DNA of 28,462 nt from a virus. Of this stretch, positions 2,285-21,493 are shown piece after piece. Made by a program: the position numbers and the translations under genes. The number at the start of each line of letters is the position of its first letter. Position 1 is the stretch's first letter. Location: positions 1 through 28,462 of the IMG/VR virus record IMGVR_UViG_3300028197_001985, one strand, 5' to 3'. The notes under the pieces were generated by a model. It was not told the origin of the DNA, searched no databases, and saw only the letters and a program-made list of their open reading frames with translations.

Positions 2285-4288
2285 TTACCCTTTGCACCTA
2301 TTAACGTATGATTGGTAATCCATTTTTTGATCTTCTTGTGAACGTTGCATTTGATGACCTGTTTCTGTTTCTGTTTCTTTTCTCCAATCTGAAAAACTTA
2401 GTGGACTACCGTCGGTGTAAACTGTACAACCGTTTTTCATCATTGTTCCTGCTTCATCTAAACCTGCTAAATGACGCATTCTTTGTAAGTCTTCGTCTAC
2501 TGCTGGTTCGCCATGGTCTGATTGTTCTCTGTTATCAATTATTTCTTGTACAAGACCTTGTATTGCTTCATCTCTGTCGTCGTCTGCATGTAAGCCATGC
2601 TCTGCACAATACTCATTAAGTTCTTGATCAAAATCTTGTTGACTCATATCCAAGTGCTGAGCTAGTGCTTGTTCACCTTCATCGTCGCATATTGTCATTG
2701 CATCATCAAACATAGTTGACTCTTCGCTTGGCTCCATTGCTGGATCAAAACTTTCTAATTCTGCTGGTTCTTGATCATTGCTGTTTTCACCAAAGTCTGC
2801 GTTAATTTCGTCGTAATCCCATTCGCCGTTGTATTCCATGTCAAATTCTTCTTTAGTCATTTGCATAGCATCTATAATAATATCTTTTAGTCTTCCGGCG
2901 TTTAATATTTTGTTATCGCTTTTTGATCTCATACTTGCGTTTACGCCATGTTCTGCTAGTTTAATAATTTTCATATCTTGTGCTGGCACTTCTCTTTCTA
3001 TACCATGTTCAAATTCTACATCATACCATGCAACATAACCTTCGTTTGTTGGTATTGCGTGACTTTCATAAACTGGTTTGCCTTCTCCCCATTTAGGGTG
3101 AATAATTAATGTGGCACAATCATGCGTTTTGCTATGACAGTTTGGTCTTACATCGAAATCTTCTCTAATGTCGTTTAAATCTAATTCTTCAATTTCTTCT
3201 TCTTTTGTAAATGTTTTACCACTTACTGTAAATTTATCACCTTTCTTTTTACCAACTTGAGCACCGCCAAATGCGTTGCCTTCGCCTGTGTATTCTTCTT
3301 TTACTAGGCCTTTTGATCTAGCAAACTCTAACATACTGTGTAGGCCTTCTGATTTTTGTATGGAGTCTAAAAACTTTTCTCTTGCTGACTTTTCTTCGCC
3401 TTGTCTAGCACTTGACAACATTTCCATCATGTCTTTTAGTGCTCTTGCTTCGCCAACACTAACTTCCATTTCTTCGCCGTCATCCGTTTTTACTGTAGAC
3501 AATGGGTTTTTAATGTCATCGCCGTCTTGCGACATTTCATAACTATCAATTATTTTACCAAGTTGGTCGAACATTGGCTTTTCTTTAAAGCCTGGTACAT
3601 GAGAATAATCGTCATCTTGATCGATGTCGCGTTCTTCTAGACCTGCCATTCTTCTTAGTTCGTTTAAATCTATATTTTCCATTGTCTTATTACCTAATTT
3701 GTTTCGTATCATATTGAATACTGTTTCATTATATTTATCATATAAATCGACAAATGCCTGTTTTGCATCGTCTATATTTTCACTTCCTAGCATAGTTCTT
3801 ATCTGTGACGCACTATTTACTTCATGTCCATTGACTTTAAATGAAGTTGTTGGCACAGTCATTATATATCCGTGCTCTACCATGCTGTCAATTTTATCCA
3901 TACTTGTAAATTTTTGTAAGTATGCTGGTTCGCCGTTTTTCTTTAAACTCATACCACTTGCTGGGAAGTTAAAACGTGGATCATCGAGCATATCTTTCTC
4001 ACTAACAGCAAATATTAAACCATAATTGTTATTAAATCGATTTTTGTATTCGTCGCCGTTATATGTTTGTTTTACTTTTAAAATATTGCTTTGTTCTACA
4101 CCAGTTAAATTCATAATTTTAACCTTTTCGTCAAAACTAAATGGTGATTTGACCGCATCTACTTTTTCCGTAGTAGCAATGTAGACATTCTTAAACTTGC
4201 TGTTTAGCAAATCATAGACACCTTTGTGTCCTTTGTGAAAAGGATGAAATCTACCTGGGTATATTACTATTACGTCACTTGCGTTCAT
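2285..4288 (-). CDS. nucleotidyltransferase (NMNAT/cytidylyltransferase-like) fused to a long acidic region
   Basis: 667 residues. Residues 1-200 form a HIGH-type nucleotidyltransferase: PGRFHPFHKGH at 11-21 contains the HxGH motif, and NSASQIR at 158-164 matches the second (ISSTxxR) motif. Such domains transfer NMP or AMP to small phosphorylated acceptors, as in NadM, CoaD and TagD; the substrate cannot be told. Residues 205 to the end are acidic with no known fold. They include LNELRRMAGLEE, then near the C-terminus LQRMRHLAGLDE, and a Cys/His-containing central block (PNCHSKTHDCATLIIHPKWG). I chose ATG 4288 over 4303 because the nucleotidyltransferase strand begins right after it and GATAAATA lies exactly 5 nt upstream. 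It overlaps nothing downstream and ends 3 nt before the LAGI-motif gene. Confidence 0.8.
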   Translation of the reverse strand: MNASDVIVIYPGRFHPFHKGHKGVYDLLNSKFKNVYIATTEKVDAVKSPFSFDEKVKIMNLTGVEQSNILKVKQTYNGDEYKNRFNNNYGLIFAVSEKDMLDDPRFNFPASGMSLKKNGEPAYLQKFTSMDKIDSMVEHGYIMTVPTTSFKVNGHEVNSASQIRTMLGSENIDDAKQAFVDLYDKYNETVFNMIRNKLGNKTMENIDLNELRRMAGLEERDIDQDDDYSHVPGFKEKPMFDQLGKIIDSYEMSQDGDDIKNPLSTVKTDDGEEMEVSVGEARALKDMMEMLSSARQGEEKSAREKFLDSIQKSEGLHSMLEFARSKGLVKEEYTGEGNAFGGAQVGKKKGDKFTVSGKTFTKEEEIEELDLNDIREDFDVRPNCHSKTHDCATLIIHPKWGEGKPVYESHAIPTNEGYVAWYDVEFEHGIEREVPAQDMKIIKLAEHGVNASMRSKSDNKILNAGRLKDIIIDAMQMTKEEFDMEYNGEWDYDEINADFGENSNDQEPAELESFDPAMEPSEESTMFDDAMTICDDEGEQALAQHLDMSQQDFDQELNEYCAEHGLHADDDRDEAIQGLVQEIIDNREQSDHGEPAVDEDLQRMRHLAGLDEAGTMMKNGCTVYTDGSPLSFSDWRKETETETGHQMQRSQEDQKMDYQSYVNRCKG

Positions 4289-4292
4289 AATA

Positions 4293-4631
4293 CTATTTAT
4301 CACATTCTATCTGTACTACCTTGATTGCTTCTAGTAAGTCGTATGGACTTTTGTGTGCCAGTGGTTCTTGTTGATCAACAATATTCTTATCTTCGTACAT
4401 AGCGGCACCTTTTTCATTTAGTTCAAGGAAAGGAATTTGTTCCGGTGGCAATTCATCATCACACCATATTGCTTCTGTTGGACATTCTGGTTCGCATAAC
4501 GCACAATCAATACATTCGTCTGGATTAATGTATAGCATTTCTGGACCTTCATAGAAACAATCAACTGGACAAACTGTAACACATGCTGTATCTTTACAGC
4601 CAACACACGGACTTCCGACTACAAACGTCAT
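4293..4631 (-). CDS. fdxA: 7Fe (3Fe-4S/4Fe-4S) ferredoxin, FdxA type
   Basis: 112 residues from ATG 4631. The cysteine pattern matches Azotobacter-type ferredoxin I shifted by one. C9, C17, C21 and C50 would hold the 3Fe-4S cluster and C25, C40, C43 and C46 the 4Fe-4S cluster, with C12 as the spare cysteine. The C-terminal extension (about residues 55-112) is usual for this family. It acts as a low-potential electron carrier. ATG 4631 is preferred over 4673 because the family starts MTFVV or similar and the upstream gene ends at 4633. It lies directly after two 2OG-oxygenase-like genes in the same operon. Phage ferredoxins known to me are mainly plant-type 2Fe-2S, so a 7Fe type is notable. 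Confidence 0.93.
4294..4301 (-). promoter_or_regulatory. late promoter motif, 5 nt before the nucleotidyltransferase
   Basis: GATAAATA, spacer GTATT of 5 nt, then ATG 4288. The motif overlaps the last codons and stop of the ferredoxin gene. It supports 4288 as the start. Confidence 0.6.
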
Positions 4632-4632
4632 A

Positions 4633-5313
4633 TTAAATATCGAAGTCTTGTGGTTTTTTAAGGTGTAACGCACTTGGCGTGACTACACCTGTAATAGTCA
4701 AGCAGTACCTAGGCCATAAGCCAGCATTGCCTGTAGCATGATATATTCCTTCTTTCCAACAATGGATATCACCTAATTTGTATTGATGTATAACATCATT
4801 GCCAACACTAACATAGTGTCCCCATTGCCAATCGTTAAGTTGTACTAGGTAACGTATCACTTCTGTGTCATCGCCTACTTTGGCATGATTCCTTCTGTAG
4901 TTGTTGTAACTATCTCTGTGCCATGGAACAAATTTACCCGGTGGCTGTTCTAAAAACATTATTTGAGGATTCCATAATCCGCTTCTTTCAGCCATCAAGT
5001 GTGCTATATGATGTAAGTTTTTTCTAGTTTGTCTACCACCAGTATTATGTTCTGTAAATCCTGCTCTTGTTAAATCGTTATGATAGCCTTCCATGATGTC
5101 TCTTGCTTCTTCATTGTAAGGCTCACCTTTAATACTTACTTCGTCGTATCTATCTTCGTCACTTAAGGCCTCTTTGCACGTAAGCACGCCGTCTCTAAGC
5201 AACGATTCAGGGTTAGTAGTAAATCTACCTACATATTGTACATCAGGGGTTGTATTGGCTGGATCGTAGTGCCAATCAAAGTTTTCTTTATTCCATTCCC
5301 AATAACTATCCAT
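4633..5313 (-). CDS. probable 2OG-Fe(II) oxygenase (Asp/Asn hydroxylase-like)
   Basis: 226 residues. [16 protein letters not shown] supplies a His-x-Asp iron motif, and [22 protein letters not shown] supplies the distal His and an Arg that would bind 2-oxoglutarate. The strand order (iron motif, then [14 protein letters not shown], then the His/Arg strand) fits a double-stranded beta-helix. The first ~90 residues are polar and specific to this protein. The product may hydroxylate a protein side chain or small molecule. Spacing to the neighbours is 3 nt and 1 nt, so it belongs to the 7689-4293 operon between another oxygenase-like gene and the ferredoxin. Confidence 0.72.
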
Positions 5314-5316
5314 AAA

Positions 5317-5889
5317 TTACTCTGTGTCAAAGAAGAAAGTTTGAAACAATCTTCCAGTATATTTATCTGTTCCAAAGCCAGGTAGCACACTTCTGTGATA
5401 CATGCCGCCTCTATAGATTACAAGCCTGTTATACATGTTGCCCACAAAATTAATCTGCTCCCATTGGTCCATATGACTATCCCCTAAGAAGTCCGCATTA
5501 TTAAAATCACTTTGTGAATTAGCAATGCCGTCCCATTGATAGATGCCTGTAGGTTTATGTTTATATATAGCAGTACCAGAAAGGGCAGGAGCGTCTGGTG
5601 TTAAATATAAAACTGCCGCCCACATTGTTTCGTCATGATGAATCCATGTAGTTGATTCTTCTGTTGTTATTTGATATGCTGTGTTGTATTCTTTAGGCCA
5701 AAATGTAATCTTTGATCTCATTAACCCTTCAAAGAATTCTTTTAGATATGCGTGTTGTTTATCATTTTCAGGGCCTGTCCTGTAACCTGGGTAGTTGCCT
5801 TCTGTAATATATTCTTGTTCTAATGCGTATTCTCGTACTTGATCTACGTTATCGTAAAAGTTATCAAATACTATTAAGTTTTTATCCAT
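5317..5889 (-). CDS. 2OG-Fe(II) oxygenase-like protein (DUF6445-like)
   Basis: 190 residues from ATG 5889, which has a good AAGGA ribosome site; an upstream in-frame ATG at 5928 would run deep into the GH6 gene. Iron motif WIHHDETMWAAVLYLTPDAP includes His-x-Asp, the distal His is in YRGGMYHRS, and the 2OG Arg is in GRLFQTFFF. The N-terminus (VFDNFYDNVDQVREYAL) is typical of phage-encoded P4H-like oxygenases annotated as DUF6445. The substrate is unknown. It overlaps the GH6 gene by 16 nt, so coupled translation is likely. Confidence 0.8.
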   Translation of the reverse strand: MDKNLIVFDNFYDNVDQVREYALEQEYITEGNYPGYRTGPENDKQHAYLKEFFEGLMRSKITFWPKEYNTAYQITTEESTTWIHHDETMWAAVLYLTPDAPALSGTAIYKHKPTGIYQWDGIANSQSDFNNADFLGDSHMDQWEQINFVGNMYNRLVIYRGGMYHRSVLPGFGTDKYTGRLFQTFFFDTE

Positions 5890-6725
5890 GCTGTATTCCT
5901 TACAAGTTGTTCGCCCATTTCTCCCCACATTCTACCTGCCCTAGGACCGCCATTTGCTTTGCCGTCGCTTTCGCCGGGTATTTTAATCCATAAAAACGCA
6001 TCGCATTTTTCAAGTCCTGTGTCACATGTAGGTGGGTTGCCTAATGCTCTACCAGGTGGATTACACCATTCGTTGCCATGTGGACCATTACCGTTGCGGC
6101 TAGTGTCCACAACATAATAATCCTGTGATCTAAGTTCGCATATTTTATTTGCCCACTTACATGATTCTATTGTTGTTCTATAATTACTTACATTAACTGA
6201 GAAGCCTCTTACCTTAGGATTGGTAACCTTATTAAGGTATTGTGCTACTTCTTCTGGACTTAGCCAATTGCTATGCCCTACATCAATATATACAACTGCG
6301 TTTGTTTCAGTTAATATAGTTAATGCGTTTTTAATTAATTGTATTCTATCTTCTGCTTCTCTATCGCTAAGATGTGTTAAATGAGGTATTGCGTCTGGTT
6401 CAAATATAACAATTGGTGCGTGATTGTCTAACCCTAACGCAAAGTCTTGTACAAATTGTAAGTATTCTTCTTGAGTTTTAGCACCACCTTTACTGTATTG
6501 TCCTATGTCTCTGTTAGGCATATTATACACAACCATTACTGGCAATTTGTCGCCGCTTCTTTTAAACAGTCTGTGTAAACTTTTGTGTAAATTTTTTATA
6601 GGTTTAGCACTACGATTGCCGTACCAAAGACTAAGTGGATATTTAAATATTTCTTTTGTTAATGGATATTGTTCTTGATAGTCTTTTACACGATTCCAAT
6701 CAAAGACCCAGAATGGATACTTCAT
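5874..6725 (-). CDS. glycoside hydrolase family 6 (cellulase-family) enzyme
   Basis: 283 residues, about the size of a lone GH6 catalytic domain. The family signature blocks occur in order: VVYNMPNRDIG (65-75), IVIFEPDAIP (105-114), VVYIDVGHSNWL (144-155), GFSVNVSNY (174-182), VVDTSRNGNGP (205-215), EWCNPPGRALGNPPT (219-233) and DAFLWIKIPGESDG (242-255). Asp73 and Asp111 match the conserved GH6 Asp pair, with Asp111 as general acid; Asp254 lies at the proposed base position. All expected catalytic residues are present. GH6 enzymes cleave beta-1,4-glucan with inversion. There is no signal peptide and no carbohydrate-binding module, so release by lysis or carriage in the virion must be assumed. 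It overlaps peptide deformylase upstream (ATGA) and an oxygenase-like gene downstream. Confidence 0.92.
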   Translation of the reverse strand: MKYPFWVFDWNRVKDYQEQYPLTKEIFKYPLSLWYGNRSAKPIKNLHKSLHRLFKRSGDKLPVMVVYNMPNRDIGQYSKGGAKTQEEYLQFVQDFALGLDNHAPIVIFEPDAIPHLTHLSDREAEDRIQLIKNALTILTETNAVVYIDVGHSNWLSPEEVAQYLNKVTNPKVRGFSVNVSNYRTTIESCKWANKICELRSQDYYVVDTSRNGNGPHGNEWCNPPGRALGNPPTCDTGLEKCDAFLWIKIPGESDGKANGGPRAGRMWGEMGEQLVRNTAWIKT

Positions 6726-7267
6726 ACACGTCTAACACTTCTTTTCATGTTAGCATATTTTTTTACAAGTTTGTCTCTTTTTTTAATGGCTCTTTGTAGT
6801 TTAAAGTCGCTTATATAAGATAAATTAAGTACACCATGTAAATGATCTGTTTCATGCTGAAAGCATCTAGCATCCATTCCTTGTAGTTCTAGTAATTGTT
6901 CTTCACCTTTTCTATCTTGAAATTTAACTTGAATACCTTCTGGTCGTGTAACATGAAAGAATAAACCTGGAAATGTTAAGCACCCTTCTTCGAGACTTGT
7001 TGTTTCTTCTGACTGAAACATTATTTCAGGATTGTAAACAGCGGTATTGCCTAATGTACTGTGAGACATTACAAACATTTTAACAGTATTACCTAGTTGC
7101 GGTGCGGCTAAACCTAACCCCATTCTGTCTCTCATCAATTGAAACATTTCTTGCTCAACTGTTTGCCAAACAATGTCAGTTTCTAATGGATCAATATCTG
7201 CTGGGTTATGTAGTGCTGGATGTTTTGGTTCAACTAATGTGTTGTTCCATAGTGTTGCGTATTCCAT
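6722..7267 (-). CDS. def: peptide deformylase
   Basis: 181 residues with the three family motifs: GLGLAAPQLG (residues 50-59), EEGCLTFPG (93-101, metal ligand Cys96) and QHETDHLHG (137-145, ligands His138 and His142, catalytic Glu139). It removes the formyl group from nascent peptides. ATG 7267 is preferred over ATG 7279 because it overlaps the stop of the upstream gene as TAATG and follows a GGAAGGG ribosome site. Marine T4-like phages often carry a deformylase gene. Its reading frame is intact to a basic C-terminal tail. Confidence 0.95.
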   Translation of the reverse strand: MEYATLWNNTLVEPKHPALHNPADIDPLETDIVWQTVEQEMFQLMRDRMGLGLAAPQLGNTVKMFVMSHSTLGNTAVYNPEIMFQSEETTSLEEGCLTFPGLFFHVTRPEGIQVKFQDRKGEEQLLELQGMDARCFQHETDHLHGVLNLSYISDFKLQRAIKKRDKLVKKYANMKRSVRRV

Positions 7268-7689
7268 TATCCCTTCCAAGTCAGTGTGTTATTAGACAAT
7301 GTAATACTGGGCACATTCTCGTACTCATCACCGTAATCACTCCAATACCATGGATCTAAATAATATATGTATGCTGGGCCTTCTGTGGTATCAAACAACT
7401 CTCTATGGTAAAAGTTTTTATCTTTATCGTTTTGATGGCCTTCAATACCATCGCATAACTTTAAAAAGTCTGCCCCGCCTTCCCACACTTCGCCTAGTAT
7501 ATCATGATCGCCATTTATAACTGCGCCTGGAAATGCGCCTAACTCGACTAAGTTAAATTTGCTTCCAGTAGTTTTAGCAATGCCTAATTTTGTCTTTTCA
7601 ACATGATCAAATTGGGGACTATCTAATCCTCGCATAGAATTGCCTGATTTCAGTGTGCCGTATACAAATATCTTTATTAGTTCTTCCAT
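7267..7689 (-). CDS. gamma-glutamylcyclotransferase-like (AIG2/GGCT fold) protein
   Basis: 140 residues. The signature IFVYGTLKSG (7-16) is the family's substrate loop. FPGAVINGDHDILGEVWEG and LCDGIEGH follow the usual order, and the Glu of DGIEG is the likely catalytic acid. Family members release 5-oxoproline from gamma-glutamyl amines or glutathione; the phage substrate is unknown. It is the first gene of an operon that runs to 4293. A perfect sigma-70 promoter and a late motif lie just upstream, with AAGGA as ribosome site. Confidence 0.85.
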   Translation of the reverse strand: MEELIKIFVYGTLKSGNSMRGLDSPQFDHVEKTKLGIAKTTGSKFNLVELGAFPGAVINGDHDILGEVWEGGADFLKLCDGIEGHQNDKDKNFYHRELFDTTEGPAYIYYLDPWYWSDYGDEYENVPSITLSNNTLTWKG

Positions 7690-7698
7690 AGTGTCCTT

Positions 7699-7727
7699 AT
7701 TATACTACTATTTATAGTATATGTCAA
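7699..7727 (-). promoter_or_regulatory. perfect sigma-70 promoter containing a T4-type late motif
   Basis: On the minus strand TTGACA (7727-7722) is followed after 17 nt by TATAAT (7704-7699), an exact consensus match at ideal spacing. TATAAATA, the late core, sits inside the spacer (7716-7709). The sigma-70 start would fall near 7692, leaving only a few nt before ATG 7689. The late start would fall near 7703 and keep the AAGGA ribosome site. It drives the operon from the gamma-glutamylcyclotransferase-like gene to the ferredoxin. Confidence 0.88.
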
Positions 7728-10173: not shown

Positions 10174-10206
10174 TATTTATTATACATTAATAATTAAACT
10201 TGTCAA
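10174..10206 (-). promoter_or_regulatory. perfect sigma-70 promoter fused with a late motif, directly before the ATG
   Basis: TTGACA (10206-10201), a 16-nt spacer, then TATAAT (10184-10179), which runs straight into AATAAATA (10181-10174). The spacer CTATT (5 nt) then leads to ATG 10168. Either start site would lie within about 4 nt of the ATG. The promoter also lies inside the 3' end of the upstream membrane-protein gene. Confidence 0.85.
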
Positions 10207-12438: not shown

Positions 12439-14133
12439 TTACTTTAACTGGAAGTTACCACCACCAAACGCGGCTTGCATACCTTTAACATATTGTACTT
12501 CTTCTGTATCGCTACCATCTACAACATAGTATACTTCATAAATAGCCTCTCTTAGATCATCTGTTATTTCGCTACCTGTATAAAAACTATAAGCAAAATG
12601 TCTATTAAATTCTGTATTATCGTTTTTAGTTGCTGTTAATATAAAGTTATATGTTTTATCTTCTGTTAAAGCCGCTGTTACAGTTGTATTGGCTGTTAAT
12701 GCCCAACCGTCTGACGCATTACCTGTAATTTCTAGTGCTGGCGGTAATGCGGCAAAGTCTGAACTGGTTATACCTGTTACTGTATTTGCTACATCTAAAC
12801 TTAAACTTAAACTACCTGCGGCACTTGTTAAGCCTTCACCTAATGTACCTGCGTTTGTATTCCACACAGTTGCGTAATACTCGTTTTCTAAATAAACAAT
12901 GTTATTTGGAGTTGTGCTATATAGACCTGGGTCTTGGAATAGCATACCTGTCAGTGACTGTGATATTACAAAATCTCTAATATTTTCTGGATGGTATCCT
13001 GGATTTCGTTGTACTGCTATTGCGGCTACGGCACCTACTATTGCTGTTGATGCACTAGTACCTGATGCTGGCATAAATGTGTCTGCTTCTGCTACTGAGT
13101 CATATCCGCCGCCTACGTTTCTATTTACTATTGATGCTACATTAACTGCTACACCTGGAGCAAATACGTCAACTTCTTCGCCGCCATTTGTTTGTAAGCC
13201 TGTACCTTGTTCAACAACTGTTCCAGCATCGTTTGAGAAAGTTGGAACGTTATCTGAGGCATCACTTGCCCCTACTGTTAAAATGTTGTTAAGACCTGCT
13301 GGGGAGTAGTTATCTACGTCACCACCGGCATTACCTGCCGCGGCAACAACTACAAAACGTCTGGCCCACATATATGTTGCTAGTCTATCTAGTGCTTCTG
13401 ATTTAGGAAATGTGAATGCCATAACTGCTACGGCTGTTCTGTTTGCGCCACCTGTATCTCTTCTAGAAGCAAGATCTCTATGTACAAACATTGAGTTAAC
13501 ACCTTCTGCTACTGATGAAATGTCAGCAGATCCAGTTGCGTCAGAAATTTTAACAACACCTAAATGTGCGTCTTTGGCAACACCTAATGTTTCGCCTACA
13601 ACTAAACTTGCCATTGCTGTTCCGTGTCCGTGATCGTCCTGTACAACGAATGTAGAAGCATCGCCGCCTCCAGAAATAAAGTCGTTGTAACTACCATTTG
13701 TTGGGTTGTGTACTTTTTGTATTGTAGCATTAGCAAATTCTGAATGCTGATCATCTACACCACTATCTATGACATATACAGTAACATCGTTACCGGTGTA
13801 CACTGGGTCAAAAGTATCTCTAAGAGGAAGATTCCTAGTAACTAGACGTTGTTTGTGCCACTCGGTTGTTGATTCGCTAATAGCAAGTGTGGATACATTT
13901 GATCCTGTTCCGACTAATTCTGTTGCCATTACATTTGCTATGCCTGTAATATCGCCGATACTTGCTTCGTCTATTGTTAATTCGTAAAACCCGCCATCAA
14001 TGTTAGCGAATTCGTTAACAATAGTTGCGCCTGCTGTAACTAATTCTTGTTTTTGTGATGCTGGGTCAAAGTCAGTGAACCCTGCGTCTATACGATGATT
14101 TTTCATCGATATAAAGTAATTTTTATCTGCCAT
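12439..14133 (-). CDS. subtilisin-like serine protease (peptidase S8)
   Basis: 564 residues. The catalytic triad is Asp123 in VIDSGVD, His170 in DDHGHGTAMAS and Ser360 in ASGTSASTA; Asn268 in AAAGNAG supplies the oxyanion hole. Residues 1-105 resemble an I9-type propeptide (YFISMKNH, then FYELTIDE). Residues about 420-564 are a beta-rich extension with Ala/Thr-rich strands, ending in a short helical segment and QAAFGGGNFQLK. There is no signal peptide, so it may be virion-associated; PAAR lies two genes upstream. A good ribosome site (AAGGAAGA) precedes the ATG. It is followed by an intrinsic terminator. Confidence 0.93.
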   Translation of the reverse strand: MADKNYFISMKNHRIDAGFTDFDPASQKQELVTAGATIVNEFANIDGGFYELTIDEASIGDITGIANVMATELVGTGSNVSTLAISESTTEWHKQRLVTRNLPLRDTFDPVYTGNDVTVYVIDSGVDDQHSEFANATIQKVHNPTNGSYNDFISGGGDASTFVVQDDHGHGTAMASLVVGETLGVAKDAHLGVVKISDATGSADISSVAEGVNSMFVHRDLASRRDTGGANRTAVAVMAFTFPKSEALDRLATYMWARRFVVVAAAGNAGGDVDNYSPAGLNNILTVGASDASDNVPTFSNDAGTVVEQGTGLQTNGGEEVDVFAPGVAVNVASIVNRNVGGGYDSVAEADTFMPASGTSASTAIVGAVAAIAVQRNPGYHPENIRDFVISQSLTGMLFQDPGLYSTTPNNIVYLENEYYATVWNTNAGTLGEGLTSAAGSLSLSLDVANTVTGITSSDFAALPPALEITGNASDGWALTANTTVTAALTEDKTYNFILTATKNDNTEFNRHFAYSFYTGSEITDDLREAIYEVYYVVDGSDTEEVQYVKGMQAAFGGGNFQLK

Positions 14134-14134
14134 A

Positions 14135-15325
14135 TTAATCTTCCTTCAATATATAATTTACAATCCGGCTTGCTTCATGTTCATCAATGGCAACCGATCG
14201 CGACATTGTTTCTCTAAAATACTTATCAAACTCTTGGAGTAACATGTCTTTACCTAAGTATTTATCTGAATAGAACTTTTTGATACCCTCAAAGCCAGTA
14301 TATTTAGTTCTGGGTAAAGCAAACATGTTATTCGGTGTGTAAATATGATTTATTTTAAAGTTGTATTTATCTTTCTTAAATGATCTAAAGTTTTTAGGGT
14401 TATCTACTTGTCCAAAACCATGAAACATGTATCCGTCCCTGTACTGCCACACGTTATAGTCTAGTAATTCTTTGAATGTGACATCCGTTTTATTGATCAT
14501 ATTATTAGTTTGTGTTAATGCCATGTCAGTAGTACAGTTATAAAAATCTGATATAGAATTATCATTGCGTTCTGCTAGTGCTTTATCAAACACCCACAAT
14601 GATGTAGGTTTGGTCATGTAGTCTATGTCATTAAACACATCATTTTTGTATGTAAAGTTGTCCAATACATTTTCTAAATCTGTTGAATCTTTTCTTGCGT
14701 TGTACAGCAAGTTTGTAAATATTTTGTGATGGCCTGAGTAAATTATATTGCCTTCCACCTTTTCAAATGCGTGTAGTATTGGCGGAAACTGTGGACTAGT
14801 ACAGTTATACTTTCTACAATACTTCATTATTTCGCCTGTATTAAAAAAGTTAATAATGTCAATGTCAATAACAGTAGGTGTTAGGTTATGGTGCTTACAA
14901 AAATCAAATGCGTATTTTGTATCGTAATCGTTAAGCACTTTGTCCATATGACAGTATGTTACTATTATAGGCGTAAATCTTATTCCTAATTGTAATAACA
15001 AACTAGCAACATTTTCGCTGTCAACACCACCACTAAGAAACACATTATAATTATTTTCTTGTAAGTAGTCGCGTAAATGTATATCTACATACTCTGCTAT
15101 TGTGTTTTCTATTTTTGGATTTTTTGGAATTACAGTTGTTGTATACGGAAGTATTATACTGTTTAGATTTTTTTCAGCAAGTCGATGTTCTGTACCAATG
15201 CCACCACCTAAAGTTTTTGCTCTAAAGTCGTAAAGGTTATTACTATCAAAATGTGTTTTTTGTTTTATAGGTACTAAATGTAATTTAGTATCATTTGAAA
15301 TGCCTAATACGGCGTCATTTATCAT
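14135..15325 (-). CDS. PP-loop ATP pyrophosphatase, asparagine-synthase-like, without amidotransferase domain
   Basis: 396 residues. NVFLSGGVDSENVASLLLQLG (split as NVFLSGGVDS and ENVASLLLQLG), residues 94-114, is the PP-loop that binds ATP in asparagine synthetase and related enzymes. The first ~75 residues are short and lack an N-terminal Cys nucleophile, so ammonia or another nucleophile would be used. The rest matches no family I can name. Such enzymes adenylate a carboxylate or amide carbon and then form an amide, imine or thiolated product. It overlaps the PAAR gene by 4 nt and leads into the protease gene with a 1-nt gap. Confidence 0.75.
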   Translation of the reverse strand: MINDAVLGISNDTKLHLVPIKQKTHFDSNNLYDFRAKTLGGGIGTEHRLAEKNLNSIILPYTTTVIPKNPKIENTIAEYVDIHLRDYLQENNYNVFLSGGVDSENVASLLLQLGIRFTPIIVTYCHMDKVLNDYDTKYAFDFCKHHNLTPTVIDIDIINFFNTGEIMKYCRKYNCTSPQFPPILHAFEKVEGNIIYSGHHKIFTNLLYNARKDSTDLENVLDNFTYKNDVFNDIDYMTKPTSLWVFDKALAERNDNSISDFYNCTTDMALTQTNNMINKTDVTFKELLDYNVWQYRDGYMFHGFGQVDNPKNFRSFKKDKYNFKINHIYTPNNMFALPRTKYTGFEGIKKFYSDKYLGKDMLLQEFDKYFRETMSRSVAIDEHEASRIVNYILKED

Positions 15326-15591
15326 CCAATATTAACACTATCAGACCCGCCAGTAATAGGGTGGCCACATGTTGCTGTGTCACCTGCTCTTGCGGCAAAT
15401 TTGCCTTCAATCCTCACTTTACTAGATACTTTTTTACTTATGGTAACTTTGGCATGTGGTGAGTCGCCATGTGCTTGTACAGGATCGCCTTCACGGGCGG
15501 CTGGTAGTCCATCAATATTAACCTTTGATGCTCCATCCTGTATTAGTCCACCTGCTTTATCGGTAGTGTTTGCTCTTGCGGCTTTTGACAT
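15322..15591 (-). CDS. PAAR-repeat protein (baseplate spike tip)
   Basis: 89 residues with the PAAR layout: NIDGLPAAREGDPVQAHG, a central strand pair, then KFAARAGDTATCGHPITGGS. The His and Cys residues (HGDSPH and CGH) could bind the metal at the spike tip. PAAR proteins cap the central spike of contractile tails, as gp5.4 does in T4. The N-terminus is cleanly placed by ATG 15591, which is 5 nt after a CATAAATA late motif, in keeping with late virion expression. Confidence 0.93.
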   Translation of the reverse strand: MSKAARANTTDKAGGLIQDGASKVNIDGLPAAREGDPVQAHGDSPHAKVTISKKVSSKVRIEGKFAARAGDTATCGHPITGGSDSVNIG

Positions 15592-15924: not shown

Positions 15925-17013
15925 TTAAAGTGTGAAGCCGGTGAATGTATCTTGAGTAACGTCTTGTTTTGTGCCGCCAATAACGTAACTACTAATTTCT
16001 GTTTCTTGTGGTGCTACTTGTACATCGCCACCTGTGATCCATTGTTGTGTCCACGGTAACGGGTTAGTGCCTGTGTTAAATATTTTTTCTTGCCTAACAG
16101 CATTCATTCGTTTGCCAGCAATAAACTCTACATACTGTTTTAGTAGTTCTGCGTTAAGTCCAATAATGCTACCATCTTTAAACAAGTAGTCAGCCCATTG
16201 CTTTTCTTGTTCAACAGCGTCTAAAAACATTTGTGTACATTCGGCATAAGTTTCTTTTTCAATTTTTTCAAAGTCTTTGTCTTCACGTGGAAGTAATTTT
16301 AACATCTGCTGAGTACTTGCTAAGTGAACATTTTCGTCTCTAGCAATCAGTTTAATAATTTTAGCATTGCCTTCCATCTTTTTAAGTTCAGCAAACGCCC
16401 AACTACAGGCAAATGACACATAAAAACGTACACCTTCAAGTATGTTTACACTCATTAAGCACAACCAAATACGCTTCTTGTGTTCATATTCGTTATACTT
16501 GCTACTGTTAGTTGCTTTTAGTAAATTATATTCAATAAGTCTATCGTAGTTTTGTGTAATACTATCTGAACAGTCTGTAATTTCCGGAACGTCCATCATA
16601 TCGTCAAACACTTTACTTGGATTAGGGTACACATTACGAATAATATGCGTGTAACTCTTACTGTGAATTGTTTCACTGAATGCCCAAGTCTCGATCCATG
16701 TTTCTAATTCAGGCAGACTTACTATAGGCAAGAAAGCAAGATTAGGTGAGCGACCTTGTACACTATCAAGTAGTATCTGTCGCTTCAAGTTACTGGTAAA
16801 GATATGCTGTTCGAAGTCAGTGAGATCTCTAAAGTCTTTTGTATCTTTGGTGATATCTACTTCTTCTGGTCTCCAAAAGAAACCTAATTGCTTTTCTGTG
16901 AGTTTATCGAACTGTCTATATTTAAGAATATCAAATCGTTGAATTCCCATGTCGTTTGATAAAAACATGTTACTCTTGCTTGTATATTTTGCTTTTGTGT
17001 TAAGTACACCCAT
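15925..17013 (-). CDS. nrdB: class Ia ribonucleoside-diphosphate reductase, beta subunit
   Basis: 362 residues, close to the E. coli protein in length and sequence. Diiron ligands are Asp83 (LLDSVQGRSP), Glu114 and His117 (AFSETIHSKSYTHII), Glu193 (NILEGVRFY), and Glu227 and His230 (ARDENVH). The radical Tyr is Tyr121. The C-terminal tail ends TFTGFTL, matching the segment that binds the alpha subunit. It forms a holoenzyme with NrdA to make deoxyribonucleotides for phage DNA. It is coupled to nrdA by TAATG. Confidence 0.98.
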   Translation of the reverse strand: MGVLNTKAKYTSKSNMFLSNDMGIQRFDILKYRQFDKLTEKQLGFFWRPEEVDITKDTKDFRDLTDFEQHIFTSNLKRQILLDSVQGRSPNLAFLPIVSLPELETWIETWAFSETIHSKSYTHIIRNVYPNPSKVFDDMMDVPEITDCSDSITQNYDRLIEYNLLKATNSSKYNEYEHKKRIWLCLMSVNILEGVRFYVSFACSWAFAELKKMEGNAKIIKLIARDENVHLASTQQMLKLLPREDKDFEKIEKETYAECTQMFLDAVEQEKQWADYLFKDGSIIGLNAELLKQYVEFIAGKRMNAVRQEKIFNTGTNPLPWTQQWITGGDVQVAPQETEISSYVIGGTKQDVTQDTFTGFTL

Positions 17014-19301
17014 TATATTTTACAACTCTCGCAGTCTTCGTCATCAATTTCGCCCATTGGCAAATCTTCTAACTTATCATCTTTGTTTATATCAATCTCG
17101 CCTTGACCATCGTATGTGTTGTTATAGTATAACTGTTTGCCGCCATACTTATAAAACATCAAAATGTCTTGAATCAGTACGCTCATTGGTACCTTTTCGT
17201 CTTCGTAGTGTTCTGGATTATACGATGTATTTACCGAAATACCTTGGTCTATATACTTTTGTAATACAGCCATGATCTTTAGATACCCCTGTGGCGATTT
17301 TTGATCCCATAATAAATCATATTTGTTTTTGTAATATGGAAATCCTGGTACTACTTGTTTTAGGATACCGTGTTTACTTTGTTTAATGCTAATATATCCA
17401 CGCGGTGGTTCAATACCGTTTGTGCTATTACTAATTTGTGCGGATGTCTCAGCAGGCATAAGTGCCATTAATGTACTATTTCTAATACCGTGTTCTATTA
17501 AGTTCTTTCTTAGTTCTTTCCAATTTTGTCTTTCTTTGTGTTTAACTAATTCGTCTAACTCTTTTTTGTATGTTTGATTAGGTGTAATGCCCAATCCATA
17601 CTTTGTTTCAGGTGTGCCCGGACAAGCACCTTTCTCCATTGCTAGTTTGTTACTAGCCTTAATTAAACTGTAACTCCATGCTTCTGCCCACTCGTCAATT
17701 AATTCTAAATTAGGCTCTTGATAAGTCATGTTATGCTTGGCCATCCAGTACGCAAAATTAATAATACCAATACCTAGTGGACGTCTTTTCATTGTGCTAA
17801 GTTCAGCGGCTAATACTGGATACTCTTGGTAGTCTAGTAATTCGTCTAATCCCCTAACTGCTAACTTACATACTTTAGACATTTCGTCAAAGTCTTTTAT
17901 CACACCCCAATTCACAGCACTCAGTGTGCACAAACTAATCTCGCCTTCTGGATCGTTAATATGTGTTAACGGCTTTGTAGGTAAGTTAATTTCGCAACAC
18001 AAATTACTTTGTCTAATAGGTGCTACATCTTCAATAAATGATCCGTGTGTATTAGCATGGTCAACATTCATTAAGTATATTCTACCAGTGTCTTTTCTTT
18101 CTGTTACATACGCACTGAATAAGTCTATTGCCTTAATAGTTTTCTTTCTGATACTTGTTTTACGTTCTGCCGCTTCGTACAATTCTTTAAACTTATCTTG
18201 ATCAGTAAAGAAAGCATCGTATAGACCTGGTACATCTTTGGGACTAAACAATGTGATGTTTCCACCACTAATAAGTCTTTCGTACATAAGTTTGTTAAAC
18301 TGTACACCATAGTCCATGTGTCTAACGCGGTTGTCTTCTGTGCCTTTGTTATTTTTAAGTACAAGTAAATCTTCTACTTCTAAATGCCATAACGGATAGT
18401 ATAGTGTTGCCGCTCCACCTCTTACTCCACCCTGTGAGCATGACTTAACTGCTGATTGGAATAGTTTATAGAAGGGAATAACTCCTGTGTGAGTTGCGTC
18501 TCCGCTCCTAATAGGCGAGCCAATTGCTCTAATGTTTCCAGCACCTATACCTATGCCTGCCTTTTGACTTACATACTTAACTACAGCACTAGATGTTGCG
18601 TTAATGCTATCTAAACTGTCGTCAGTTTCAATTAGAACGCATGAACTAAATTGTCTTTGCGGTGTTCTAACTCCTGCCATAACTGGTGTAGGCAAGGAAA
18701 TTTTAAATGTGCTGATAGCATCATAATATGCTTTGACATACGCCATTCTTTTCTTAGCAGGGTACTTACTAAACAATGTAGCCGCAATCATCATGTATGA
18801 TACTTGTGGTGTTTCGTAAATTTTGCCAGTTGCTCTATTTTGTACTAGGTACTTGCCACGGAATTGTTCCATAGCCGCATAAGTTAAATCTTCGTCGCGA
18901 TCATGATTAATAAATGTTTGTAATTGATTTATCTCGTCCTTGGTATACAATTTAGTAAACTCACGGTCATAGAAGCCAGCCTTGATATTTTCATCAATAA
19001 TATCGCATAAGCAAGGAGGTGTAAAACTGTCGTATACCATTTTACGCAAATGATAATTGATTAGCCTACCTGCTACATATTGATAGTTTGGCGTTTCTTC
19101 AGATATTAAATCTGCTGTACTCTTAATTATAGTTTCTTGAATTTCTACTGACGGGATTCCATCATAAAATTGTATTTGACTGTTAATTTCAACTTGCGAC
19201 GCACTGACACCTGTGAGGCCGTCAACCGCATACATTACTACTTTGTGTAGTTTGTCTATGTTTAAGTCTTCTTTGTGTCCATTGCGTTTTGTTACTTTCA
19301 T
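17013..19301 (-). CDS. nrdA: class Ia ribonucleoside-diphosphate reductase, alpha subunit
   Basis: 762 residues. An N-terminal ATP-cone (about 1-90, MKVTKRNGHKEDLNIDKLHK opening) suggests allosteric activity control is kept. Active-site residues are Cys221 (SSCVLIE), Asn433, Cys435 and Glu437 (SNLCCEINLPT) and Cys458 (SLCTLSAVNWG). The C-terminal CESC pair (C757, C760) would pass electrons from glutaredoxin. Both substrate and specificity-site segments look complete. It shares ATGA with the gene before it and TAATG with nrdB. The two glutaredoxins are in the same window but in a separate unit. Confidence 0.98.
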   Translation of the reverse strand: MKVTKRNGHKEDLNIDKLHKVVMYAVDGLTGVSASQVEINSQIQFYDGIPSVEIQETIIKSTADLISEETPNYQYVAGRLINYHLRKMVYDSFTPPCLCDIIDENIKAGFYDREFTKLYTKDEINQLQTFINHDRDEDLTYAAMEQFRGKYLVQNRATGKIYETPQVSYMMIAATLFSKYPAKKRMAYVKAYYDAISTFKISLPTPVMAGVRTPQRQFSSCVLIETDDSLDSINATSSAVVKYVSQKAGIGIGAGNIRAIGSPIRSGDATHTGVIPFYKLFQSAVKSCSQGGVRGGAATLYYPLWHLEVEDLLVLKNNKGTEDNRVRHMDYGVQFNKLMYERLISGGNITLFSPKDVPGLYDAFFTDQDKFKELYEAAERKTSIRKKTIKAIDLFSAYVTERKDTGRIYLMNVDHANTHGSFIEDVAPIRQSNLCCEINLPTKPLTHINDPEGEISLCTLSAVNWGVIKDFDEMSKVCKLAVRGLDELLDYQEYPVLAAELSTMKRRPLGIGIINFAYWMAKHNMTYQEPNLELIDEWAEAWSYSLIKASNKLAMEKGACPGTPETKYGLGITPNQTYKKELDELVKHKERQNWKELRKNLIEHGIRNSTLMALMPAETSAQISNSTNGIEPPRGYISIKQSKHGILKQVVPGFPYYKNKYDLLWDQKSPQGYLKIMAVLQKYIDQGISVNTSYNPEHYEDEKVPMSVLIQDILMFYKYGGKQLYYNNTYDGQGEIDINKDDKLEDLPMGEIDDEDCESCKI

Positions 19302-19729
19302 CGTTTGATTTTGTCTAGTTTGTTATGTTTAATTTTTTCTAATACTCGTATGTAATTATCTAATTCTTGTCTTTTTACAGTTTGATTCGGTAAAATGTTA
19401 TAGTAACATACTCCATCTGAAAAAGCAAGTCCTACCTGGCCAAATTCGTGATTATCTGCAACAAACCACGAGACAGTACTAGTGTCTAATAACCCCATAT
19501 GAGCAAGTGTGTCGTGTAGTAATAATGCCTTGCCGCTATGGCAAAACATTGATTCGCTTATAATTTCCCAACTTGTTGGCCAGTCACCCGGCGAATAGAA
19601 GTCAAAGGCTCGTTCAGTAGTTTTAATACTACCTACATAACTAATAACTTTGTTTATTTCTAAATCTTGTTTTTTGAAATTACGCCAAACTGTTAATCGC
19701 TGTTGCGAGTTGACTATGGTGTCAAGCAA
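19298..19729 (-). CDS. uncharacterised protein (143 aa) next to nrdA, TTG start
   Basis: The frame starts with TTG 19729, directly after the TAA of the structural gene (TAATTG), and ends in ATGA with nrdA. It contains PGDWPTSWEIISESMFCHSG, KALLLHDTLAHMGL and VSWFVADNHEFGQVGLAFSD. The ordered Cys, His and Asp residues are loosely like a transglutaminase-type triad, but I cannot support that call. The C-terminus is basic. Position between a virion gene and nrdA gives no clear hint of function. Confidence 0.6.
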   Translation of the reverse strand: MLDTIVNSQQRLTVWRNFKKQDLEINKVISYVGSIKTTERAFDFYSPGDWPTSWEIISESMFCHSGKALLLHDTLAHMGLLDTSTVSWFVADNHEFGQVGLAFSDGVCYYNILPNQTVKRQELDNYIRVLEKIKHNKLDKIKR

Positions 19730-21493
19730 TTATCCCAACCATTTTCTTACTAGGTATTTTACTGTTGCCGCTCTATTGCCGCCTGATGCTAGTGTATTGG
19801 TTGCTTTAACTTCGATTGTACCTGAGTTCATACTTGCTGTGAAGTCTACTGTGCCTGTAAAGTTATTATCAATGACAACACCGCTGTCGACTAACGCCGC
19901 ATCAGCCATTCCTGTGTCACCTGTAACTTGTAATGTGCCTGTTCTACTGTAGCCGTCACTGGCACTTGCGCCTACGGCCTTAACTGAATATTCGATTATG
20001 GCTGAATCGTAAACTGTTGATTCAAAGGTGTCTACTACTTTATTTGATTCACCAGCAGTAAGTGATACAGTCTGTGCTGTATAGCCTGAGTCTGCTGATC
20101 CACTTAGTAGTAAGTCATAGTCATCATGTGTTAAAAGTCTTTGGTTAGATTTTACATTGGTTAAACCGGTAACATCAGCGTCAGCATTAGCAAAGTATAA
20201 TCTGTTTGCTATGTAAGAAAAGTTCTCTGCTTCCTTATTACCTGTAAATGTTACAGACAATGCGTCGGATGATGCTGTAACATTTGCGTAAGTTTCTATG
20301 TTAGTAGCACCGGAATTATACTTTGTTCCTTTAACCTGTGCTGACGTAAACATATTAAAACTTGTACTGGCTACTGCGTTACTTACCCACGCCTCAAGTT
20401 TGCCTTTGATAGAATCAATTGCTTTTGTGCGACTGCCTGTAGCAATACTTAAATCGCTGTCTATAACTGTAATATTAAATTCTGAACCATCTGTTGAATA
20501 TAAGTTCCACTTGGTGGCTGATTCGCTTTTTGCCTTTAGCCATGTATTACTTGACGCATTATTAATTGCTGTTATAACACTTGTTAGTGTTGTATGACTG
20601 GATAATGGTATATTCAAGTCACTGCCGGCAGTTCTTGTTACTGTAATTTGCCCTGTTAGTGTTAGACTTGAAGGTGATGTAACTGTACTACTGTATGCTA
20701 CAACTTCTAAATGCTTATCTTCTAATCCAATAAATGCTGTACCAGTAACGTGATCTGCTAAAATATATGCGTTACTTAATTTTCTTGTGTCAGGTATGTT
20801 TGTACCTGTAAAATATTGCTGATAAAAACCCTGAACATTAGTACTACCTATAGTATTGTCACTTGATGAGTCAACAATAGCAGAAATAATATCAACATTA
20901 TTATAATATGAAACAGTAAAATCATCACTGCCTGTTGGTTGTGTACCAAATGTTATTGTATGATCTGCTGTTTTAGAGTTTGTCTCTGATGAAATTATAT
21001 ACTCACTTGATAACAGGTTTGCTGTTGTTCTTGTTGCGTTAGTAGTTAATAATGTACCGTTCTTAGTTACTGTTAAATCAGTACTTTGAAAAAATGCGTT
21101 ATCAAATACATTAACAATACCTGTACTTCCTACGTTAGTCCCAAATACTGTTTTACCGTGTGTTTGGTTACTGGCACTACTTGGTGTGTAAATGCTACTG
21201 TTAGAAGTTCCGTCAAATGTACCTGGGGATAACCGTTTGCTAGGTAGTATAATTCTAATAACATTGTTATTTAGATACCCATTAGCATAACTATAACCGC
21301 CTACAACGTTATTAATATTAATAGCATTGGCATTTTGCTTAGTAATTCCTATACTAGGATCTAACCCAATAAAGATTTCCTTGCTGTCTGATGCTAATCC
21401 AATTTCGCCAGGGCGAAGTGGTTGAGGCAAATCTACGCGATTTCCTCTGCGTTGTTGCATTCTTGATATAATTATTTTGTTTTGGTCTGCCAA
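19730..21493 (-). CDS. large virion structural protein, fibre-like, TTG start
   Basis: 587 residues starting at TTG 21493 with GGAG as ribosome site; the next ATG is inside the conserved N-terminus. The opening RMQQRRGNRVDLPQPLRPGE then IGLASDSKEIFIG is the N-terminal attachment-type motif often found in marine T4-like tail-fibre or baseplate proteins. The remainder is Ser/Thr/Asn/Gly-rich with beta-strand periodicity and no enzymatic motif, as in a trimeric fibre or receptor-binding protein. No reverse transcriptase or variable/template repeat accompanies it. A GATAAATA motif lies 21 nt before the start. Confidence 0.78.
   Translation of the reverse strand: MADQNKIIISRMQQRRGNRVDLPQPLRPGEIGLASDSKEIFIGLDPSIGITKQNANAININNVVGGYSYANGYLNNNVIRIILPSKRLSPGTFDGTSNSSIYTPSSASNQTHGKTVFGTNVGSTGIVNVFDNAFFQSTDLTVTKNGTLLTTNATRTTANLLSSEYIISSETNSKTADHTITFGTQPTGSDDFTVSYYNNVDIISAIVDSSSDNTIGSTNVQGFYQQYFTGTNIPDTRKLSNAYILADHVTGTAFIGLEDKHLEVVAYSSTVTSPSSLTLTGQITVTRTAGSDLNIPLSSHTTLTSVITAINNASSNTWLKAKSESATKWNLYSTDGSEFNITVIDSDLSIATGSRTKAIDSIKGKLEAWVSNAVASTSFNMFTSAQVKGTKYNSGATNIETYANVTASSDALSVTFTGNKEAENFSYIANRLYFANADADVTGLTNVKSNQRLLTHDDYDLLLSGSADSGYTAQTVSLTAGESNKVVDTFESTVYDSAIIEYSVKAVGASASDGYSRTGTLQVTGDTGMADAALVDSGVVIDNNFTGTVDFTASMNSGTIEVKATNTLASGGNRAATVKYLVRKWLG

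Follow-up and report, generated by a model that had tools for sequence, protein, structure and literature searches.

The window analysed here, a 28,462-nucleotide stretch of an uncultured virus from IMG/VR, encodes a single-domain protein of glycoside hydrolase family 6 (GH6), and this is no stray gene: PA5oct-like jumbo phages and other phage lineages carry relatives. The viral GH6 lineage looks like a distinct branch of the family adapted to production inside the infected cell. Previous work had described viral GH6 genes (PMC8725595) and phages equipped with cellulases to exploit the cellulose of their hosts (PMC9544554); the present analysis adds the scale of the phenomenon, the core status of the gene in a jumbo-phage clade, its single deep viral branch and its cytosolic-type features.

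The family assignment rests on concordant sequence and structure comparisons. A Pfam profile search matched PF01341 to residues 20-259 of the 283-residue protein with an E-value of 1.5e-52 (180 bits against a curated cut-off of 27, which places it in GH6), and phmmer matched the GH6 endoglucanases Cel6 of M. tuberculosis (1UP0; 5e-53) and Cel6A of T. fusca (1TML; 6.5e-50), which a profile of the viral set matches at 6e-71 and 3e-58, respectively. An AlphaFold2 model (pLDDT 87, pTM 0.89), in which only the loop 74-78 adjoining D73 has a pLDDT below 50, displays the distorted beta/alpha barrel of Cel6. It overlays Cel6 endoglucanases with Z-scores of 30-32 over about 270 residues; the top PDB structure is 1UP0 (Z 32.3, rmsd 2.3, 277 residues), and cellobiohydrolases score lower (Z 25-28). 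The catalytic domain, with 283 residues, compares with 286-294 in bacterial endoglucanases and about 358-428 in cellobiohydrolases, and this length together with the best Z values predicts an enzyme of the endoglucanase rather than the cellobiohydrolase type. These results bear out the identification of a phage GH6 enzyme in the earlier note. Its proposal that the predicted structure should contain an active-site tunnel is unsuited to this protein, because both the length and the closest structures are those of short open-cleft endoglucanases and not of tunnel-bearing cellobiohydrolases. Searches with the protein matched no PHROGs family and nothing in NCBIfam, and the BFVD library of viral models gave no convincing match for GH6 structures.

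Table 1. Features of the GH6 operon and its surroundings in the window
Feature	Positions	Strand	Remarks
Nucleotidyltransferase-like N-terminus with long extension	2285..4303	-	recurrent neighbor
Ferredoxin-like protein	4293..4673	-	weak PHROG ferredoxin match, CxxC motifs
Conserved downstream neighbor without Pfam match	4633..5313	-	
DUF6445 protein	5317..5928	-	downstream in operon; PHROG 1644
GH6 (PF01341) single-domain protein, 283 aa	5874..6725	-	ATG start; D73, D111, D148, D254, Y67
Peptide deformylase	6722..7279	-	overlaps GH6 start by 4 nt (ATGA)
Gamma-glutamyl cyclotransferase-like (GGACT) protein	7267..7689	-	first operon gene
Perfect sigma-70 promoter, TTGACA-N17-TATAAT	7699..7727	-	9 nt before first ATG of operon

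In an alignment to T. fusca Cel6A, D111 corresponds to the catalytic acid D117, and D73, D148, D254 and Y67 to D79, D156, D265 and Y73; further equivalent pairs are R72 and R78, H151 and H159, W154 and W162, K248 and K259, and E252 and E263. The three aspartates singled out previously (Asp73, Asp111 and Asp254) were therefore named correctly, and the active site is intact as had been claimed: none of the GH6 catalytic positions checked is missing from the window protein, and all are invariant in 67/67 distinct viral proteins. For the SKG and DxGHxNW motifs this invariance arises partly by selection, because the seeds of our second scan contained them; the same active-site residues are seen in members from the first scan, whose seeds were other peptides, only some of them covering the active site. 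Residue 79 of the catalytic loop is lysine in all viral proteins and serine in T. fusca (Ser85 of Cel6A) and M. tuberculosis. We rejected it as a virus-specific active-site change and see no viral innovation in it, since two actinobacterial GH6 proteins (L077 and L086) share the lysine. The gene is under purifying selection, with dN/dS values of 0.06-0.13 among close relatives. Judging from these residues, the protein is predicted to be a catalytically competent endo-beta-1,4-glucanase with an open cleft, which by the rule of its family would be inverting.

The viral proteins share family, fold, catalytic-domain length and catalytic positions with M. tuberculosis Cel6 and T. fusca Cel6A, but those enzymes are secreted, contain disulfides and often carry binding modules. 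The viral GH6 proteins do not have the signal peptide and conserved disulfides that mark secreted bacterial cellulases. A hydrophobic N-terminus is absent in nearly all of them (the highest value being that of L113). The cysteine that follows the catalytic-loop aspartate, retained at the Cys80 position by most of the cellular GH6 proteins sampled, the Gilgamesh phage protein discussed below being an exception, gives way to I, V, M or L in every one of the 67 viral proteins; C221 persists in 62 of the 67, and its partner cysteine is variable and missing in the window protein. As the earlier note had stated, the window protein has neither a signal peptide nor a binding module: its N-terminus is not signal-like and its 283 residues leave no space for an extra domain. 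The loss of the disulfide conserved in secreted GH6 enzymes and the want of a signal peptide would fit folding in the cytosol.

A first scan of IMG/VR yielded 39 GH6 loci and a profile-seeded scan at least 109 relatives, 80 of which, including some near-copies of one another, were kept; GH6-bearing contigs reach 339,794 and 216,820 bases. We regard the main group (group A) as jumbo-phage-like because G002, a sister contig of 130 kb, encodes a terminase with 58.5% identity to that of PA5oct-type Pseudomonas jumbo phages, and we take this group to be marine, following both the earlier note and our own reading of the material. The GH6 proteins of a second group (group B) show 40-46% identity, and its gp6-like baseplate protein is nearest to those of Microcystis phage Mel-JY01 and Flavobacterium phages; loci L165-L167 represent a third genomic context. 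The phage origin of the gene is supported. All 11 loci retrieved with the deformylase of the window as query also contain GH6, which accordingly behaves as a core gene in the close clade. A search of 18 contigs for the T4 gp23 major capsid protein (PF07068) gave no match anywhere and is uninformative.

In a maximum-likelihood tree whose cellular GH6 sequences, as in our other comparisons, are mostly from Actinomycetota, all 30 viral representatives form one clade (support 100/100) on a stem of 0.89. Among INPHARED phages, GH6 was matched only in Streptomyces phage Gilgamesh (two records) and in MT836874.1. Gilgamesh gp72, annotated as a glycoside hydrolase (GH6), likewise exemplifies a GH6 enzyme encoded by a phage, but its gene is larger (1335 nt), and it probably represents a separate acquisition because it branches outside the marine viral clade. 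MT836874.1 (L069), filed as Bacteriophage sp., was rejected as a GH6 phage, since its six-frame reading resembles, by eye, a bacterial chromosome; the frames appear to include TonB receptor, PepSY-like and regulator proteins.

The deformylase adjoins GH6 in 63 of the 80 loci, mostly directly upstream, and a nucleotidyltransferase-like gene lies near it in 66. The operon proposed in the earlier note stands with respect to the deformylase; of the "oxygenase-like" proteins it listed, the two encoded after GH6 are a DUF6445 protein and a protein without a Pfam match (Table 1). The DUF6445 gene probably starts at the ATG at 5889. Its product matches PHROG 1644, "minor coat protein" (E=8e-35), which is odd for such an operon, and the name of that PHROG may be wrong. 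Elsewhere in the window a subtilase (PF00082) extended by a long C-terminal region (12439-14133) and a PAAR spike-tip protein (15322-15591) are encoded a few genes apart. Certain related contigs carry other unexpected genes. Downstream of GH6 in L152 (3063-4925), a contig classed as viral, there is a gene for a SusC/RagA-like TonB-dependent receptor (TIGR04056, E=1e-24, below the cut-off), which suggests a Bacteroidota host or a phage-carried host gene. Type IV pilin-like proteins (GFTLIELVMVTIILGILAAVAIP) encoded at a contig end (L056, about 17000-20000; G014, 117-120 kb) are either phage cargo or the result of a contig join. On the jumbo-phage contig G002 (107-111 kb; L049) proteins resembling the iron-sulfur cluster assembly factors SufC, SufD, SufS and SufT were recognized by eye.

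Behind its promoter the operon runs in the order GGACT-deformylase-GH6-DUF6445 and onward, and both hexamers and their spacing are kept upstream of the GGACT gene in 12/12 sequences inspected, with variable flanking bases. Perfect sigma-70 promoters number 2 in the window against 0.06 expected from base composition, 11 against 0.30 in G002, 6 against 0.14 in G007 and 0 against 0.38 in the group B contig G014, and looser matches show no excess over expectation. None of the 11 in G002 falls in its first 21 kb, with the terminase and tail-sheath-like genes. One of them precedes its SleB endolysin gene, so promoter type alone cannot separate early from lysis genes, and a host-type promoter leaves the timing of expression unfixed; it suggests that the host RNA polymerase may transcribe the GH6 operon. 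The second perfect promoter of the window (10179-10206, minus strand) lies 10 nt before a 52-codon ORF (MKRQKPRSIQQPKVRYAKELFTRDTPYGHKVQRDRTKTLP...), and both recur in G002 at 64516. Since several perfect -10 boxes (in G002, L044-L050; at 7699 and 10179 in the window) sit just 6-10 nt before an ATG, some transcripts may be nearly leaderless. We considered and rejected the idea that the operon is preceded by a late promoter of T4 type, TATAAATA: this word occurs 4 times in the window with 5 expected, similar AT-rich words score alike, and its copy at the GGACT gene falls inside the spacer of the perfect sigma-70 promoter.

An endolysin gene of the SleB type (Hydrolase_2) is present in 8/10 large group A contigs; in G002 its product begins with a signal-like sequence and matches a PHROG endolysin. 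GH6 is hence probably not the main lysin, although the 28-kb window is too short to show whether its own phage has a separate endolysin. The role in lysis or adsorption put forward in the earlier note is plausible, and we tentatively favor a version of it in which GH6 is a soluble endo-beta-1,4-glucanase that builds up in the cytosol, is freed at lysis and cuts exopolysaccharide. For this explanation we infer the activity, substrate, timing, release at lysis and benefit of the enzyme. The host-type sigma-70 promoter would drive GH6 within the deformylase operon, and the protein would fold in the cytosol and accumulate there, needing neither the signal peptide nor the disulfide of its secreted relatives. 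After the SleB-type endolysin, a separate protein, has breached the cell, the released enzyme would attack cellulose or a similar exopolysaccharide of the beta-1,4-glucan type, either at the surface of the host or in the matrix, which could free progeny and thin the matrix around neighboring cells. This explanation is supported by the precedent of Erwinia phage S6 (Schitoviridae), which depends on cellulose as its first receptor and encodes a GH5 cellulase (gp095) verified on carboxymethylcellulose, besides a predicted GH48 enzyme, gp094 (PMC9544554). The S6 cellulases are likewise phage enzymes directed against beta-1,4-glucan, but they belong to other families and are multidomain. The absence of a carbohydrate-binding module or tail-attachment domain in viral GH6 proteins counts against the explanation.

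It is also conceivable, if unlikely, that GH6 is a structural depolymerase located near the baseplate, cutting surface glucan at adsorption. The requirement of phage S6 for its cellulose receptor agrees with such a function, as does the gene context in group B, where GH6 lacks a deformylase neighbor and genes for gp25- and gp6-like baseplate proteins follow a few genes downstream. The Gilgamesh gene comes after minor tail protein genes, though its product falls outside the marine clade. Gp255 of jumbo phage vB_BpuM_BpSp, a GH25 enzyme, provides a further parallel: this too is a glycoside hydrolase that a jumbo phage encodes as a stand-alone protein, and it interacts with a baseplate protein; it differs in being a cell-wall hydrolase with LysM domains and in having been shown in virions (PMC4870245). 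Against a structural role, GH6 has no extra attachment domain, and in the lineage of the window the conserved host-type promoter and the metabolic-looking operon (GGACT, deformylase and ferredoxin-like genes) do not favor a virion component. Given the different context of group B and the lack of a perfect sigma-70 promoter in G014, the role of GH6 could differ between lineages.

The same operon genes and promoter, along with the cytosolic type of the protein, would accord with an enzyme that works while the infected cell is still alive, attacking for instance nascent beta-glucan or oligosaccharides and so freeing glucose or blocking polymer export. We consider this quite unlikely, as no gene for sugar uptake or a beta-glucosidase was noticed adjoining GH6 and bacteria are not known to have a cytosolic pool of cellulose. 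A more general proposal, to our minds improbable, is that a virus-specific deep branch of GH6, core to jumbo phages across several host groups and produced in the cytosol early on, acts within infected cells or on some polymer other than cellulose; if true, GH6 would have a role unknown in cellular life. An auxiliary metabolic function agrees with the label of carbon-metabolism AMG given to viral GH6 in Mariana Trench sediment, where it was one of several AMGs (PMC8725595); those genes, compared here by their description alone, likewise lie on viral contigs.

Re-use of the GH6 fold in lysis on another polymer, a non-glucose beta-1,4 polysaccharide or even peptidoglycan, is decidedly improbable: the depth of the viral clade and the invariant Lys79 could point that way, but the lysine is not virus-specific, every glucan-site residue checked is conserved and sister phages have their SleB-type endolysin. 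That GH6 is a neutral passenger or decaying cargo, for which nothing speaks except the lack of a known function, is scarcely credible with an invariant catalytic set in 67 proteins, a dN/dS of about 0.1 and its presence in all 11 close-clade deformylase loci.

The earlier note stated that no role of GH6 is established in tailed phages, which holds only in part. Our literature searches on phage GH6 turned up the Mariana Trench study as the one directly relevant paper; against the statement, viral GH6 genes had been reported there, Gilgamesh carries an annotated GH6 and phage S6 a verified cellulase of another family. The proteins assembled here form a defined set, single-domain and of cytosolic type, that is ready for expression and assay. 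They also counsel caution where viral GH6 genes are taken to be nothing more than carbon-cycling AMGs. In a widespread group of uncultured phages the gene for a cellulase-family enzyme is conserved and not rare cargo, which suggests that polymers of the beta-1,4-glucan type are an obstacle or a resource during infection by such phages.
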